Shown here in pieces: positions 25,512-50,601 of a DNA stretch of 64,000 nt. Numbering within the stretch: position 1 is the stretch's first letter; each line of letters starts with the position of its first letter. The position numbers and the translations under genes are program-made. The notes below the pieces were generated by a model. It had not been told where the DNA came from and made no database searches. It saw only the letters and a list, made by a program, of their open reading frames with translations. The stretch is from the NCBI RefSeq assembly GCF_003217235.1, contig NZ_QJTF01000010.1, positions 1 to 64,000 of the forward strand, in the 5' to 3' direction. Source of the stretch: Paramesorhizobium leguminum (GTDB lineage: Bacteria > Pseudomonadota > Alphaproteobacteria > Rhizobiales > Rhizobiaceae).

Positions 25512-26582
25512 TCAGGCCGAAACGGCAAGTTCCGTTTCGCGGTCGAATAGATGGACGTTCTTAAGCGAAATATGGAGACTGGCGGCGGCGCCTTTTTCCA
25601 CGCCGGGCCTTCCGCCATGCGCCACCACCAAATGCTGCGATCCAACGCTTGCGGTGACGAACGTCATGCTGCCCGTGGATTCGACGCTTTCGACGACCGC
25701 TTCCATGGTGAGACCATCGCTGACTGGTGCGAACGACAAATGCTCGGGCCGCAGCCCTGCCCACAAGCGCGTACCGGGAACGAGCTTGCGATCGAGCACC
25801 AATGCATCACTGCCGTCTATTGCAAGCGTATGCCCGTCAGGCCCGACCACGACGGGAATGAAATTCATGGCGGGCGATCCGATGAAGCCGGCGACGAATT
25901 TGTTGGCGGGCTTGTCGTAAAGATCGAGCGGGCTGCCCTGCTGCTCCACCACCCCTGCCCGCATGACCACGATATGGTCGGCCATGGTCATGGCCTCCAC
26001 CTGATCATGGGTGACGTAAACAGAGGTGGCCTGCAGCCGCTCGTGCAGCTTGCGAATCTCGCTGCGCATATGGACGCGCAGCGCCGCGTCGAGGTTGGAG
26101 AGCGGCTCGTCGAACAGGAACACCTTGGGGTTTCGCACGATGGCGCGTCCCATGGCGACGCGTTGTCGTTGCCCGCCGGACAGGGCTTTCGGCAGCCGGT
26201 CGAGGAGACCGCTTAAGCCCAGCGTCTCCGCCGCCGCCCGCGTGCGTTCTGCGATCTCCGGCTTGGGCCGGCGTTTCAGGCGCATCGAATAGTTCATGTT
26301 GTGCTCGACATCCATGTGCGGATAGAGCGCATAGGATTGGAACACCATGGCCACATCGCGCTCGCGCGGCGGCTTGCCGATGACGCTTTGCCCGGCGATG
26401 CGGATATCGCCCGAACTGGTCTTTTCCAATCCAGCCAAGGTCCGCAGCAAGGTCGACTTGCCGCAGCCGGACGGCCCGACAAGTGCCACGAACGAGCCTT
26501 GCCGGATGGCGATGTCGATATCCTTCAGCGCGTGGAACCCTGCATAATGCTTGTTCAGGCGGTCGATCTCGATCTGGAGCAT
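25512..26582 (-). CDS. Sugar ABC importer ATPase (MalK/UgpC type)
   Basis: A 356-residue ATPase. Walker A GPSGCGKST is at residues 36-44, LSGGQ at 134-138 and the Walker B FLFDEP at 155-160, followed by the D-loop SNLD and the switch histidine in YVTHD. A C-terminal TOBE-type domain (from about residue 240) is present, as in MalK/UgpC-like proteins that serve CUT1 carbohydrate importers. The gene is the last of the importer cluster and directly follows the inner permease (12-bp gap). It energises uptake through the two permeases and the binding protein. Confidence 0.94.
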   Translation of the reverse strand: MLQIEIDRLNKHYAGFHALKDIDIAIRQGSFVALVGPSGCGKSTLLRTLAGLEKTSSGDIRIAGQSVIGKPPRERDVAMVFQSYALYPHMDVEHNMNYSMRLKRRPKPEIAERTRAAAETLGLSGLLDRLPKALSGGQRQRVAMGRAIVRNPKVFLFDEPLSNLDAALRVHMRSEIRKLHERLQATSVYVTHDQVEAMTMADHIVVMRAGVVEQQGSPLDLYDKPANKFVAGFIGSPAMNFIPVVVGPDGHTLAIDGSDALVLDRKLVPGTRLWAGLRPEHLSFAPVSDGLTMEAVVESVESTGSMTFVTASVGSQHLVVAHGGRPGVEKGAAASLHISLKNVHLFDRETELAVSA

Positions 26583-26593
26583 GGGATTATCCC

Positions 26594-27406
26594 TCATTTC
26601 AGCGCGCCGGCGGTGAGGCCGCTGACGATGCGCCGTTGCAGCAGCATGAAAACCAAAAGGATGGGCGTCACATAGATCGCGGCGTAGATCATGATGCCGT
26701 TCCAGTCATTGGCGTTCGGCCCCATGAAGGTCTGCAGGCCGACCGTCGCCGTCTGTAACTCATTCTTTGAGATCAGCGAGCGCGCATAGACATATTCGCC
26801 GAAGGATTGCAGGAAGATCAGCACGGAGGTGACGAGAATGCCGTTCTTCGCCAGCGGCAGCATGATGTTGAAGAAAGCGCCGATGCGTGACGAGCCGTCA
26901 ACCAGCGCCGCATCCTCCAGCTCGCGCGGGACCTGCACGAAAGTGGCGCGGCAGAGCACGATATAGAGCGGCAGCATCTTCGCCGTTTGCGCCAGGATGA
27001 CCGCGAAGCGCGGGCTCGCCAGAAGGCCGATCTGGTTGAACGCCACGAAGATCGGCGTCACCATCAGCGAGGACGGCAGCACCTGCATCATCAGGATGGC
27101 GAACAGCGCCATGTCCATCCAGATATTGCGCACCCGCGCCAGCACATAGGCGCAGCCCGTGCCGAGCAGGGTCACGAGAAAGGTGACGCCGATGGCGATG
27201 ACGAGCGAGTTCCAGATATACCGGCCCATATCCCGCTCCTTCCACACAGCCAGGAAATTCCATTGCGGATTGGCGGGCCAGAAGCTTGGCGGATAGTGGA
27301 AGATCTCCGTGCCGTCCTTGAAGGCGGTCAGGTACATCCAGTAGAGCGGGAAGAGATAGACCGCCGTGATAACGAGGCCGATCATGAGAAGAATAGTGCG
27401 TTTCAC
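26594..27406 (-). CDS. Sugar ABC importer inner-membrane permease (MalG type)
   Basis: A 270-residue permease with about six hydrophobic helices. The first helix is ILLMIGLVITAVYLFPLYWMY. The EAA loop 'EDAALVDGSSRIGAFFNIMLPL' contacts the ATPase. It is the second permease of a CUT1 importer. The start is the GTG at 27406, seven bases after AGGAG; the longer frame from TTG 27421 would place that site inside the coding sequence. It begins 12 bp after the MalF-like gene, so the two are transcribed together. Confidence 0.92.
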   Translation of the reverse strand: MKRTILLMIGLVITAVYLFPLYWMYLTAFKDGTEIFHYPPSFWPANPQWNFLAVWKERDMGRYIWNSLVIAIGVTFLVTLLGTGCAYVLARVRNIWMDMALFAILMMQVLPSSLMVTPIFVAFNQIGLLASPRFAVILAQTAKMLPLYIVLCRATFVQVPRELEDAALVDGSSRIGAFFNIMLPLAKNGILVTSVLIFLQSFGEYVYARSLISKNELQTATVGLQTFMGPNANDWNGIMIYAAIYVTPILLVFMLLQRRIVSGLTAGALK

Positions 27407-27417
27407 CGGCTTTCTCC

Positions 27418-28320
27418 TCAATAGCTGTGTTCGTGGCGGGTGGGACGGACATAGACGGCGGCGACCACGATGACGAACAGGATCATCAACACCGAAACCG
27501 CGCTGCCGAGCGATATTTCATAGGTCTGGAAGGACAGCTGCCACGACCAGTATTGCGCGACGTTCGAACTATCCGCCGGGCCGCCTTGCGTCAGCGCCGC
27601 GATCAGGTCGAATTGCTGCAAGGTGAAGATGATGCCGAGCGAGATGACAGCGCCAAGCTGCGCCCGCATCAGCGGCAGCGTGATCGACCGGAACCGGGTA
27701 AACGGCCCCGCTCCATCCAGTTCCGCCGCCTCGTAGACATCGCGCGGGATACCGGCGAGGCCCACCGAGAGGAGGAGCATGTTGAATGGAATGCCCAGCC
27801 AGACATTGGCGATGATGACGGCATAGAGCGCGACATCGGGGTTCGAAAGCCAGAAGATGCGGTCATCGGTAATGCCTGATGACATCAATATATAATTGAA
27901 CACGCCGAAATCGCCGGCGAGCAGCCATTTCCAGATGGCGCCGACGACCAGCGCGGGCATGATCCATCCGGCGAGGAACAGGCCGCGCAAATATGTGGCG
28001 CCGGGAAAATCTTGATGAAAGAACAGCGCCAGCCCAAAGCCTATCGATAGCTGGAATACGATGGAGAGCACGACGAACTTCACCGTATTCCACAAGATGA
28101 GCGGCGCGACCGGCTGCGACAGGATATCGTAATAGTTCTTCAGGCCGACGAACGGGCGGTTGAACGAGGCGAGCGTGAACAGATCGACCGTCTGCAGCGA
28201 CATGATGATGTTGTAGATGATGGGGAAGGCGGAAAAGGCCACGAGGTAGACGAGGGCGAGCGCGAGAAGCAGGATATCGAACCCGCTGCCGTCCCGGACC
28301 GTTCGGATGATGCTTTGCAT
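27418..28320 (-). CDS. Sugar ABC importer inner-membrane permease (MalF type)
   Basis: A 300-residue permease of the CUT1 family with six hydrophobic segments and the EAA loop 'EAAELDGAGPFTRFRSITLPL' (about residues 195-216). The ATG at 28320 follows GGGAGGAGGGAC. It pairs with the MalG-type permease. A palindromic repeat (28383-28546) separates it from the binding-protein gene, so a partial terminator could lower expression relative to the binding protein, a common feature of importers. Confidence 0.93.
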   Translation of the reverse strand: MQSIIRTVRDGSGFDILLLALALVYLVAFSAFPIIYNIIMSLQTVDLFTLASFNRPFVGLKNYYDILSQPVAPLILWNTVKFVVLSIVFQLSIGFGLALFFHQDFPGATYLRGLFLAGWIMPALVVGAIWKWLLAGDFGVFNYILMSSGITDDRIFWLSNPDVALYAVIIANVWLGIPFNMLLLSVGLAGIPRDVYEAAELDGAGPFTRFRSITLPLMRAQLGAVISLGIIFTLQQFDLIAALTQGGPADSSNVAQYWSWQLSFQTYEISLGSAVSVLMILFVIVVAAVYVRPTRHEHSY

Positions 28321-28382
28321 GTGGGTCCCTCCTCCCTTGCGGTATTCAAGTGCGATTCCCGTTTGATGGAATCATTTGTGTT

Positions 28383-28546
28383 CTCACCCCCCTCTGCCTT
28401 GCCAGGCATCTCCCCCTCAAGGGGGGAGATCGGCTGACATTGCGCTCTCACCGTCATCTGCAACACCTGCGATTGGAGCCGCCCTCGATGAAGGCCTAAT
28501 CTCCCCCCTTGAGGGGGAGATGGCTGGCAAGCCAGAGGGGGGTGAG
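28383..28546. repeat. Inverted intergenic repeat within the importer operon
   Basis: Left arm 28383-28431 (…CATCTCCCCCTCAAGG…) and right arm 28499-28546 (…CTTGAGGGGGAGATG…), nearly complementary. It is a rhizobial-style dispersed repeat. Just before the left arm, GTTTGATGGAATCATTTGTG matches the motif near 32.26 kb in inverse orientation. Confidence 0.8.
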
Positions 28547-28575
28547 ATGCCCCGCAAGCGTTTTCCAATGGCTTG

Positions 28576-29787
28576 CTACCTCCCCAACACCCCATCGATC
28601 TGCTTCTGCGCCACGCCGAGCGCCGTCTTCGGATCGCTCTGGTGCGTCAGAGATGACTGGATCGCCGTGTAGATCGCCTTCGAAATCTTCGGCCATTCCG
28701 GATGCGGGCCGCGGTTGCGGGCGTATTTCATGCTCTCCTCGAAGACGGCGTAGATTTCCGGCCATTGCGGCTTGTCCACCTGCACCTTCGCGGCAGGCAG
28801 GAAGCCGAAGCGGTTCCAGACTTCAGGCATTTTCGAATGGAGCCATTCGAGCAGGATGAAGGCCTCCTTCGGGTGCTTCGAGTTGGCGAGGATCACATTG
28901 TCGCCCTCTCCAAGCGCCGATGCTCGCGGCGCGCCTTCCTGTGGAATAGGGAGCATGGCCGCGCGGTATTCAAACTTTGCTTCCTTGGCCATGCGCGGCA
29001 TTTCCCAGGGGCCGGAAATGGCCATGGCCGCGTTACCGGCATTGAAGGTGCCGGTGGATTCATATTGGCCCCGGACCAGAGAGTCGGACGAGGCCAGCTT
29101 CTCATCGATGAGCTTGCCCCAGAATTCCAGCACCTTGACGCCGCCCTCGGTATCGACCTTGTTATAGTCGCCGCCGGTCATCTGCAGCCAGGGCAGGAAC
29201 TGGAACGTGCCCTCCTCCGTGGCGACGGCGGAAAAGGCGAGGCCATAGACATTTTTGGCCGGATCGTTGAGCTTCTTTGCCGCCTCGTAGAGTTCATCCC
29301 ATGTGCGCGGCGGCTTGTCCGGGTCGAGTCCCCCAGCCTTGAACATATCGGCATTATAATAAAGAGCGATGGTGTTGGCGCCGCGCGGAAGACCGTAGAT
29401 CTTGCCATCCCAGGTGACCGAGGCGAGCGGACCGGGAAAGATATCCTCCTTCTTGACGATTTTCGATTCCGCGATCATCGGCGTCAGGTCGAGCAACAGC
29501 CCGCGCGAGGCGAAGAGCGCCACTTCCGGGTTGTCGATATAGGTGACGTCAGGCCCCTCCCCCGTCGCCGCCGCCCGCGCAAGGTCGTTGACCATGTCGC
29601 GGAACTGGATGGTCTTGAGGTTGAGCTTGATATCCGGGTGTGCCTTCTCGAACTCGTCCTTCAACAGGTAGATGTACTGGTCCGTTCGGTCGATGGTCCA
29701 GATTTCCAGCGTTACCGGCTCGGCTTTGGCGGTCACTGCGGATAATAATACCGCCGCGCCTGCCAGCCATTGTGCGATGCGTTTCAT
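28576..29787 (-). CDS. Periplasmic sugar-binding protein of ABC importer
   Basis: A 403-residue extracellular solute-binding protein family 1 member. It has a signal peptide of about 22 residues (MKRIAQWLAGAAVLLSAVTAKA). The mature part begins EPVTLEIWTI and contains 'VTYIDNPEVALFASRGLLLDLTPMI', 'GLPRGANTIALYYNADMFK' and 'AAMAISGPWEMPRMA', all family motifs. It captures a carbohydrate and delivers it to the two permeases. The ATG at 29787 follows GAGGAGGAGATAG. A LacI-type operator lies 164 bp upstream (29951-29960), which points to control by the LacI protein at 32.3 kb. The sugar cannot be told from sequence. Confidence 0.95.
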   Translation of the reverse strand: MKRIAQWLAGAAVLLSAVTAKAEPVTLEIWTIDRTDQYIYLLKDEFEKAHPDIKLNLKTIQFRDMVNDLARAAATGEGPDVTYIDNPEVALFASRGLLLDLTPMIAESKIVKKEDIFPGPLASVTWDGKIYGLPRGANTIALYYNADMFKAGGLDPDKPPRTWDELYEAAKKLNDPAKNVYGLAFSAVATEEGTFQFLPWLQMTGGDYNKVDTEGGVKVLEFWGKLIDEKLASSDSLVRGQYESTGTFNAGNAAMAISGPWEMPRMAKEAKFEYRAAMLPIPQEGAPRASALGEGDNVILANSKHPKEAFILLEWLHSKMPEVWNRFGFLPAAKVQVDKPQWPEIYAVFEESMKYARNRGPHPEWPKISKAIYTAIQSSLTHQSDPKTALGVAQKQIDGVLGR

Positions 29788-35534: not shown

Positions 35535-35774
35535 GGCACTTTGAAATGCTGCATGATTTTTCCTTAAATCGATCCCGGATTTAAGGAATTATGCAGAGGC
35601 ATCGGACCGCGGGATGAGTATTGGTGCCGGGCCCCTCTGGCGAGAGTTTACGGCGCTCTCGTGATGTCGGTACCGCCAGCAAAATCAGGCCGGCGGATTA
35701 GCAAATATGAAAACTTGTCTCATGCTCGATGCATGCGCCCTCTCACGCGCGATAACTTTTGGGGAGGGCCGTTC

Positions 35775-40069: not shown

Positions 40070-40118
40070 GCTTACATCTGAGAAGGGCTTCCACGACTGC
40101 GTCGCTGGGGGCCTTTTT
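40070..40118 (+). ncRNA. repABC counter-transcribed antisense RNA (ctRNA, incA)
   Basis: It lies in the repB-repC gap on the opposite strand. Promoter: TTGACA at 40035-40040, 17-nt spacer, GATTCT at 40058-40063, giving a start near 40070. It ends in a 12-bp stem (GGCTTCCACGAC, 40086-40097, with GTCG-C-TGGGGGCC, 40101-40113, one bulge) followed by TTTTT. Size about 50 nt and location match the known repABC ctRNA, which pairs with the repC leader and stops RepC expression. It sets copy number and incompatibility. Confidence 0.85.
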
Positions 40119-40128
40119 CTTTTGCGGG

Positions 40129-47666: not shown

Positions 47667-48899
47667 TTGCGGGATGGATCGGGCTTGTGTGTGCGTTTGG
47701 TGCGTAAAGTCGTTCGTTGTCAGTCCCTGCCTCACTCCTTGGGCCGCGTGGTGCGCCCGCTCTTGATCGCTTCCGGCAGCGCCGCTTTTGCTGGCGCGAC
47801 GCTTTGGTCGGTCATTGGCATGATGGCGGTGAGCAACCCGATTACCGGTTCGAGCCATTATCTCCCCAAGCCACAGCTTTCTTCGGTGAAGAAAATGCGC
47901 ACACAGCCATTGGATCAGCAGGCACGGGGCAGTATGGCGAAAAAGCTGCTCGCCGAGGCTGAAACCGCCATTGCCATGATGAACCCGGTCGTCGATGACG
48001 AAAAGACCGGGCGCCCGATAAAGCAGGCCGATTCCATGCGGATGGCCGGCGCGCCGGCGTTGGACCGGTTCGGGTCGCGGTCCATGGCTCACCCGGATAA
48101 ACCTCAGATATTGCTCGCCTATGCCGGACGCCCTTCAAACAGCGCGGCGCGAGCGGCATTGTCGGCCTTGTTGGCGCCATCAGGGAAAGACAGTCCATCC
48201 GCGACGGAGGCCACTGATGATTTGGAGCAGGCGGAGGCGGAACTTCCGGACAATATTCCGCTACCGCAGCTTCGCCCGCTTGGCGAGATCCGCAAACCCG
48301 CTCTCGAAGGCGCCAAGGCGCTTGCCAGGGCCGCCGTACCGCCGGCATCCGGTGACGAGGATCGCGAAACCGCGAAGCCGCAGCTCATCGCCTATGCGCG
48401 CCCGAACGCTCCGCAGAAGGGGAGTGGTGGCCTTGGCCAGACGTTCCGTGATCTGTTCGGCAACCGGCCCAAGGCGGGAAACGGCATCGCGGTTTATGAT
48501 ATCAGCGCGGCCAAGGTCTATATGCCCGACGGCAGCGTACTCGAAGCGCATTCAGGCATTGGCAAGATGGCGGACAATCCGCGATACGCGCATGTCAAGA
48601 TGAACGGCCCGACCCCGCCGCATACCTATAATCTCAGGATGCGGGAAAGCCGCTTCCACGGCGTCGAGGCGATCCGCATGTTGCCCGTCGATGGGAAGAA
48701 CAAATATGGCCGTGATGGGTTTCTCACCCACAGCTATCTTTTGCGCGGCGGGCGTGAGGAATCGCATGGCTGCGTCGCTTTCGAGGATTATGACCGCTTC
48801 CTCAATGCATTCAAGCAAGGCAAAGTGAAGCAGATGATCGTAGTGCCGGGCCGGGGAGAGGCGACCATGCGCCTCGTTTCCAATGGCGGCAGGGTTTAA
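47667..48899 (+). CDS. DUF2778 protein, L,D-transpeptidase-like, membrane-anchored
   Basis: A 410-residue protein. A membrane segment lies near residues 30-55 (PLLIASGSAAFAGATLWSVIGMMAV), followed by a long low-complexity Ala/Pro/Glu linker. The C-terminal domain (about 270-405) is DUF2778: 'GIAVYDISAAKVYMPDGSVLEAHSG' and the catalytic SHGC (Ser366-Cys369) after 'YLLRGGREE', as in the YkuD-type fold. Members cut or cross-link peptidoglycan in the periplasm; a DUF2778 protein is a type VI effector (Tlde1) in Salmonella. No T6SS genes are nearby, so a housekeeping wall role is more likely. The TTG at 47667 is uncertain; a GTG at 47700 is possible. Confidence 0.82.
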   Translation: MRDGSGLCVRLVRKVVRCQSLPHSLGRVVRPLLIASGSAAFAGATLWSVIGMMAVSNPITGSSHYLPKPQLSSVKKMRTQPLDQQARGSMAKKLLAEAETAIAMMNPVVDDEKTGRPIKQADSMRMAGAPALDRFGSRSMAHPDKPQILLAYAGRPSNSAARAALSALLAPSGKDSPSATEATDDLEQAEAELPDNIPLPQLRPLGEIRKPALEGAKALARAAVPPASGDEDRETAKPQLIAYARPNAPQKGSGGLGQTFRDLFGNRPKAGNGIAVYDISAAKVYMPDGSVLEAHSGIGKMADNPRYAHVKMNGPTPPHTYNLRMRESRFHGVEAIRMLPVDGKNKYGRDGFLTHSYLLRGGREESHGCVAFEDYDRFLNAFKQGKVKQMIVVPGRGEATMRLVSNGGRV

Positions 48900-49972: not shown

Positions 49973-50185
49973 TGTTTTCAGGAGGGGCGGGGCATCTCTG
50001 CAGTCCATGCCAGGTCATGTGATTTCGTTCGGAGATTATTTGCAAAGGCGGAAATGAGAAATCAAAATATAGTTTGGTTTTACTTTAAGTAATTTGCGAC
50101 TTTTATGTAACATAAACAGTCGAATAACCATAATGTACATAATCTCTTCGATGGTCGGCGTCATCTATGCTATACGCGAGTCGTT

Positions 50186-50294
50186 GGGTTCAAATTTGGC
50201 TCCTCCCTGAACTCAATACTGAGCATGGCGCCTCCTCCCTGCCGTGTTCAAAAATATGGCCCGCTGCATCCTCCTCCCGCAGCGGGCCTTTTTA
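50186..50294 (+). ncRNA. Anti-Shine-Dalgarno small RNA, 'cuckoo'/ar14-like, copy on plus strand
   Basis: Three hairpins in a row, each with a C/U-rich loop. SL1: GGGTTCA/TGAACTC (50186-50214) with CTCCTCCC in the loop. SL2: GAGCATGGCG/TGCCGTGTTC (50221-50249), loop CCTCCTCCC. SL3: GGCCCGCTGC/GCAGCGGGCC (50258-50288), loop ATCCTCCTCCC, followed by TTTTT, a textbook terminator. CCUCCUCCC loops are the hallmark of the alphaproteobacterial ar14/cuckoo RNAs, which are thought to bind Shine-Dalgarno sequences. The start is a guess; a TATGCT/CTATAC box lies about 15-20 bp upstream. Confidence 0.85.
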
Positions 50295-50347
50295 TTGGCC
50301 GAACAGCAGGGATTTTTGGTGCAGGTGAGGAATTTTTAGCGAGAGCT

Positions 50348-50460
50348 GAAAACAACAACACCCGCCGCGGGAGGAGGTGCGGCGGGTGTGTTAGGTTAAG
50401 GCCAGCTTGGGAGGAGGAGGCGCCAGCCTTAAATCGCTTGGGTTTGGGAGGAGGTAAACC
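50348..50460 (-). ncRNA. Anti-Shine-Dalgarno small RNA, 'cuckoo'/ar14-like, copy on minus strand
   Basis: Read on the minus strand: SL1 GGTTT-ACCTCCTCCC-AAACC (50441-50460), SL2 AAGGCTGGC…GCTGGCCTT with loop GCCTCCTCCTCCCAA (50398-50430), SL3 ACACCCGCCGC/GCGGCGGGTGT (50358-50389) with loop ACCTCCTCCC, followed by TTGTTGTTTT as terminator. It faces the plus-strand copy, terminator to terminator, about 60 bp apart. The stem sequences differ completely; only the loop motif is shared. Confidence 0.85.
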
Positions 50461-50601
50461 CTTGCGAAGCTCTATCGTTGAAAATCAAAATAAACCAATC
50501 GCCGGAAATGAGAATGCACAATAGTGCATGGCAGCAATGTATCTGGTGCATTGCAAAATCCCATCCCTCCGATCTTGTGCCGCCAATCTCATACCCCAAT
50601 C

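Follow-up and report, generated by a model that had tools for sequence, protein, structure and literature searches.

Why does one locus carry two small RNAs with the same anti-Shine-Dalgarno loops, encoded on opposite strands and facing each other? The question arises in the first 64,000 nucleotides of contig NZ_QJTF01000010.1 of Paramesorhizobium leguminum (RefSeq assembly GCF_003217235.1); this whole stretch is referred to below as the window. An earlier note, made from the sequence alone, had described two convergent sets of hairpins here and had assigned them to the cuckoo/ar14 RNAs of alphaproteobacteria. Comparative and modelling evidence now makes it very probable that the locus encodes two trans-acting ar14 RNAs of the cuckoo/NfeR1 type, convergent and differently regulated, which would deliver the same anti-Shine-Dalgarno output and repress mainly ABC-transporter mRNAs.

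Loops, folds and ends of the two RNAs

The motif CTCCTCCC is present in all six hairpin loops of the interval 50179–50472, three on each strand, as the earlier note had described; motif search, predicted folds and shuffled sequences all confirm it. The window holds 10 copies of CTCCTCCC against 2.07 expected, and its densest 275 bp contains six; 500 dinucleotide-preserving shuffles of the window yielded two at most. Chance clustering was dropped on these grounds. The plus-strand RNA, termed B (50179–50294), folds into three predicted hairpins (approximately 50179–50220, 50221–50249 and 50258–50288; −48.5 kcal/mol, z −5.6), with anti-Shine-Dalgarno loop motifs at 50200–50207, 50232–50239 and 50271–50278. 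The minus-strand RNA, termed A (50353–50472), is likewise predicted to form three hairpins (approximately 50467–50434, 50432–50396 and 50393–50353; −52.2 kcal/mol, z −6.0), with motifs at 50446–50453, 50409–50416 and 50369–50376. In both RNAs the third hairpin is also the predicted terminator. The nine-letter form CCTCCTCCC is complete in five of the six loops. The exception is the first loop of B, GCTCCTCCC (also given as GCUCCUCCC), part of which is paired in the predicted fold: its last two C residues bind a GG just 5′ of the motif, a pairing which is possible in all six orthologues.

Each set of hairpins had been said to end in a terminator. This holds for B, whose 3′ end is a clear stem followed by TTTTT; in A the T-run is broken in the window's genome (TGTTGTTGTTTTC), where the five other A orthologues read TTGTTTTT. 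A terminator scanner detected neither terminator hairpin, since its loop limit is 8 and their loops are of 10–11 nt. Its sole terminator-like match, a short inverted repeat upstream of A at 50529–50514 (−), is not above chance (0.8 expected). The 3′ ends of A and B are separated by a spacer of 58 bp (50295–50352, from the sequence and the model coordinates), which differs in relatives. A 99-aa ORF at 50225–50524 merely overlaps both RNAs, and a protein role for it was dropped.

Family membership

The whole window was searched by cmscan against Rfam 15 at the gathering threshold, which for ar14 (RF02344) is 58.8 bits. A matches ar14 at 99.0 bits (E 5.1e-17) and B at 68.8 bits (E 2.5e-10), each over the full model length (1–123). 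Both pass the gathering score and are therefore ar14 members. The family call of the earlier note was thus right, and the covariance search on both strands that it had proposed bears it out; by the Rfam match both RNAs are slightly longer than it had drawn them. RNAs of this kind are already known, since ar14 and cuckoo RNAs with three or four CCUCCUCCC loops have been described in print (PMC3927594; PMC10746234). The window's genome has four ar14 matches: the convergent pair, and one on each of two other contigs.

At gathering the window has four Rfam matches, namely ar14 twice, a terC cis-regulatory RNA (RF03067, 63.4 bits, 35619–35679, +) and a ctRNA_p42d antisense RNA (RF00489, 58.2 bits, 40081–40125, +). 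The ctRNA_p42d RNA is typical of repABC replicons, so the contig may belong to a secondary replicon. Rfam also contains an AbcR-type family model, which had no match in the whole window at gathering.

Conservation in the genus

The pair was sought in six genomes of Paramesorhizobium and its relatives: the window's own (G000), Paramesorhizobium deserti A-3-E (G001), Brucella endophytica CGMCC 1.15082 (G002), Phyllobacterium phragmitis 1N-3 (G003), Phyllobacterium salinisoli LLAN61 (G004) and Mesorhizobium sp. RMAD-H1 (G005). G002 and G004 were taken as the renamed Paramesorhizobium endophyticum and P. salinisoli (names in NCBI). Both RNAs are present in all six genomes and are always convergent; B of G004 scores 52.5 bits, below gathering. 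The gap between A and B is 58 bp in the window's genome, 55 bp in G002, 171 bp in G003, 276 bp in G005, 1,934 bp in G004 and 1,959 bp in G001. In G001 the stretch between B and A (L014) contains an AraC-type regulator and a short-chain dehydrogenase, and in G004 (L017) it contains ORFs related to those of G001. With spacers of 55 to 1,959 bp, and genes inside two of them, the pair does not depend on tight convergence.

The loop motif is conserved in these relatives, though two single loops have decayed—the first loop of A in G003, and the third loop of B, which is degenerate in G004—suggesting that not every loop is under strict selection. The earlier note had also reported differing stems. 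This is correct between A and B, but within each set of orthologues the stems are nearly invariant. One stem pair per set has changed on both sides with pairing kept; with just one compensated pair in each, covariation adds little beyond the family model.

Among ORFs of at least 80 aa, those beside the pair encode an LprI-like protein, an amino-acid permease and a protein that matches nothing in Pfam. The permease lies next to A in the window; the nearest of its counterparts in the five relatives is that of G002, at 86%. It adjoins the pair in only four of the six genomes, being on the same contig but away from the pair in G003 and G004, and linkage to it was dropped as an essential feature. 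A plasmid source was dropped too: 421 bp of the locus had no match in the plasmid collection, in which the permease matched 540 records, all below 60% identity. Elsewhere in the window, an ORF at 47667–48899 (+) carries a Tlde1 domain (PF10908). The genus also has ordinary tandem ar14 pairs at another locus, in four of the six genomes.

Two subfamilies rather than a duplicate

A common alignment and tree were made from 23 copies, which include 11 of the 24 other ar14 matches in the genus, those with loci. Mean identity in this alignment is 89% among A copies and 90% among B copies. Between A and B it is 55%, about the same as between B and the other copies compared (52–55%). B forms its own group with a support of 100/100, while A is closest to other copies of the genus, whose terminator hairpin is nearly the same as its own. 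A model of B with its promoter, used to search 199 genomes of the family, scored 188–220 bits in the four genomes of the genus among them and no more than 79.6 bits in any other. Judged by these comparisons, A and B are two different ar14 subfamilies—A typical, B divergent—and not a recent inverted duplicate.

Orientation across the family

The convergent layout had been called unusual in the earlier note, which held that these RNAs are more often tandem copies. The orientation of ar14 copies was surveyed in 101 genomes, one for each of 101 other genera of the family (in batches of 34, 35 and 32); these are the genera with an ar14 match among 105 drawn, the remaining four having none. All 359 ar14 matches listed for the surveyed genomes entered the count. 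Of 63 neighbour pairs within 3 kb, 62 were tandem, in 42 genomes, one was divergent and none convergent, which upholds the earlier view within the limits that a single genome stands for each genus, that draft contigs may split pairs, that some first-look candidates went unscored and that copies above E 0.001 were missed. The nearest convergent pair in these genomes is 30 kb apart (G091). The lone divergent pair consists of copies at 84335–84448 (−) and 85039–85162 (+) of G020:C6.

The convergent layout is a lineage-specific arrangement of a known RNA family. No report of a convergent ar14 pair emerged among the top-ranked papers of a literature search or in the portions of PMC3927594, PMC7143759 and PMC10746234 that it took in, although an earlier mention may exist. 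The words 'convergent' and 'tandem' are absent from the main text of PMC3927594, on the cuckoo RNA families.

Upstream blocks and predicted promoters

Both RNAs have upstream blocks which are conserved in the genus, and the two blocks are unlike. The predicted promoter of B, CTTCGAT-N17-CTATAC, lies at 50146–50175 (+) and would place the start of transcription near 50181. A −35/−10-like pair with 17-nt spacing is readable upstream of B in all six genomes, with letter changes in G003 (−10) and G004 (−35). It closely resembles CTTAGAC-N17-CTATAT, which has been published as the signature of NfeR1 homologues (PMC10746234). A generic E. coli-type promoter scanner did not list this promoter, and the promoter-like site at 50107–50134 (+) that it did give is not above chance (0.7 expected). 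Immediately upstream of the promoter, the alignment reveals a genus-conserved block (ATAACCNT...ATA) at 50123–50145 (+).

A has no recognisable −35; a weak −10-like hexamer, TATTTT, may be read off the alignments at 50487–50492 (−). About 40–70 nt upstream of A, alignment and pattern search identify a genus-specific block at 50512–50540 (−) which contains ACATTGCTGCCAT and the inverted repeat ATGCA-N6-TGCAT. The pattern of this block, ACATTGCTGCYATGCANTATTGTGCATTC, allowing up to three mismatches, occurs in five of the 297 family genomes searched; all five belong to this genus, and each has a single copy, upstream of A. G003, which was outside the 297-genome draw, has the block in the alignment. 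ACATTGCTGCCAT agrees with seven of the eight letters of the VtlR/LsrB box, GCAT-N3-TG-N3-T (PMC8844928; PMC7486931), and in all six genomes ACATTGCTGCYAT in this block stands one mismatch from the box at −67 to −69 from the model start. The chance of a one-mismatch box is about 10% per 140 nt by our own arithmetic, though lower near a published distance, and the six orthologues do not count as independent cases; the VtlR/LsrB-like box of A is suggestive.

No match to the VtlR/LsrB box was found at a conserved position upstream of B in the six genomes. The upstream scan also covered 11 of the 24 other ar14 matches in the genus, two of which have a one-mismatch box at other places, and 14 of 16 fetched distant loci from other genera, seven of which have an exact box on either strand at −57 to −55. 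Four ar14 copies of other genera (L106, L113, L119 and L120) carry the exact box 57 nt upstream of the RNA and are possibly NfeR1-type orthologues. An exact NtrC site, TGC-N11-GCA, is absent from the 140-nt stretches upstream of A and B in all six genomes, some of which have one-mismatch matches at varying places; the site has been suggested to be restricted to plant symbionts (PMC10746234).

Candidate targets

In Sinorhizobium meliloti, NfeR1 is described as an Hfq-independent RNA of 123 nt, with three loops that act redundantly to silence mRNAs where translation starts; its tested targets are ABC-transporter genes and ntrB (PMC10746234). In the window's genome the loop complement, GGGAGGAG, stands 4–9 nt before an ATG at 27 places, against 2 for the reversed pattern. 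Of the 21 corresponding ORFs of at least 100 aa, 10 encode solute-binding proteins or permeases of ABC transporters. The control AAAGGAGA (25 places, 3 reversed) gave ABC components in 0 of 16 (Fisher p 0.0017 versus GGGAGGAG). The control GGAAGGAG gave 2 of 6 (p 0.66 versus 10 of 21); it is a weak control, with 15 places versus 9 reversed, and one of its two ABC matches starts inside a longer permease ORF. The pooled controls gave 2 of 22 (p 0.0068). Shorter ORFs, which account for 6 of 27 places for GGGAGGAG, 9 of 25 for AAAGGAGA and 9 of 15 for GGAAGGAG, fell outside these counts; three shorter AAAGGAGA ORFs, also scanned, included no ABC component. The excess therefore holds against an A-rich site and is not separated from a G-rich one, and the signal may come partly from G-rich ribosome-binding sites in transporter operons. 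As a prediction from sequence, the excess of ABC components agrees with the published target class of NfeR1 (PMC10746234).

The window itself contains an ABC-transporter gene cluster at 25512–29787 (−), with an ATPase, two permeases and a solute-binding protein. One permease ORF (27418–28320, −) is a candidate target, with GGGAGGAGG as the ribosome-binding site at its start at 28320. Duplexes of single loops with this start region were calculated at −19.5 to −27.5 kcal/mol, values which ignore accessibility and are illustrative only. A computation of A against B duplexes, which had no control, was set aside.

Comparison with known RNAs

NfeR1 (Smr14C2, SmelC397) of S. meliloti is the founding member of alpha-r14, Rfam RF02344. 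Like NfeR1 (about 115–123 nt), A and B each have three hairpins with CCUCCUCCC loops. NfeR1 is activated by LsrB and repressed by NtrC, and its LsrB box, at −72 to −60 relative to the transcription start, lies at a similar distance to the near match of A. Here the pieces of its promoter seem divided between the two RNAs: in B there is a sigma-70-like core of nearly the same signature but no conserved LsrB box, in A the box-like block but no clear −35. Again unlike what is described for NfeR1, A and B face each other. Since NfeR1 is described as Hfq-independent (PMC10746234), the Hfq co-immunoprecipitation proposed in the earlier note would be a poor test here.

Similar loops are found in the cuckoo families (PMC3927594, Reinkensmeier 2011), where SmelA075 has three and SmelA099 four CCUCCUCCC loops on variable stems; these RNAs occur in several copies per genome and were proposed to block ribosome-binding sites (PMC3927594). 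CcsR1–4, the CIN1 locus of Rhodobacter sphaeroides, is likewise a cluster of CcsR-like RNAs (PMC10253847, which cites the cuckoo RNA paper for the locus name). It is co-transcribed with a DUF1127 gene and processed by RNase E (PMC10253847), whereas the present locus has two opposed genes with separate predicted promoters. The siblings AbcR1 and AbcR2 offer a likeness in regulation: they are separately controlled, one depending on VtlR/LsrB and the other not, and have anti-Shine-Dalgarno motifs and ABC-transporter targets (PMC7486931; PMC8844928). They differ in being tandem in S. meliloti and A. tumefaciens (PMC8844928; PMC7486931) and in binding Hfq in S. meliloti (PMC8844928), and the window has no AbcR-type match at gathering.

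A probable locus of two inputs and one output

What has been shown of A and B is their sequence, predicted fold, family, orientation and conservation, together with the conserved upstream blocks; we infer transcription of both RNAs, an activator of A and repression of targets. B would be driven by an ordinary sigma-70 promoter, while that of A is probably dependent on a VtlR/LsrB-type activator, and each RNA would be ended by its own third hairpin. The three redundant anti-Shine-Dalgarno loops of each RNA could then base-pair with many mRNAs at their ribosome-binding sites and so block translation, chiefly of ABC-transporter genes for nutrient uptake. With A and B from different subfamilies and under different promoters, two inputs would lead to one output; in the most likely reading, the locus supplies a single anti-Shine-Dalgarno activity in two doses, each under its own regulation.

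It is conceivable, if unlikely, that just one arm works, the other having persisted by chance as a decaying copy. Of the six copies at the NfeR1 locus of S. meliloti, Northern blots reliably detected only one (PMC7143759), and one of the two arms here could likewise be silent; the low family scores of B (68.8 bits here, 52.5 in G004) and its degenerate third loop in G004 point the same way. B is nevertheless about 90% identical across the genus, with A equally well kept; its sigma-70-like promoter with 17-nt spacing is readable in all six copies, and its stems still pair, one pair having changed on both sides. Far less probable is that the two genes were simply produced by a recent inverted duplication of one RNA gene and have no functional meaning. 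The same family, adjacent positions and opposite strands would suit such an origin, but A and B are no closer (55%) than B is to other copies (52–55%), the upstream blocks are unlike, and the tree, with 11 of the 24 other copies included, contradicts it by grouping A with other copies and B apart. Nearby GC-rich inverted repeats might recall a bidirectional terminator or an element acting at the DNA level; six hairpins and two family-model matches, each containing the loop motif in sense orientation, make this scarcely credible.

Regulation could also lie in the convergent layout itself, with A and B made antagonistic by colliding polymerases or by read-through antisense RNA, which would carry GGGAGGAGG decoys complementary to the loops. 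Convergence in all six genomes, just 58 bp between the 3′ ends here and the broken T-run of A in this genome are in keeping with this. A role for convergence itself is disfavoured by the spacers near 2 kb in two of the genomes (against 55, 58, 171 and 276 bp in the others), with the AraC-type regulator and short-chain dehydrogenase inside that of G001 and related ORFs inside that of G004. Each RNA also has a terminator-like hairpin of its own, and the idea appears improbable. There is similarly only a slim chance that the locus is a two-input switch, with B on a housekeeping promoter and A dependent on an activator, which at short spacers is also antagonistic through opposed transcription; the antagonism would come from read-through antisense RNA bearing three GGGAGGAGG-type decoys for the loops of the other RNA.

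Read as two differently regulated RNAs with a shared output, the locus adds a well-conserved, lineage-specific member to the ar14 loci, in which the regulatory parts of NfeR1 appear to be split between two RNAs that share a seed. Such a locus invites the question of why alphaproteobacteria maintain several anti-Shine-Dalgarno RNAs whose loops are the same; the answer suggested here would lie in different promoters, not different targets.
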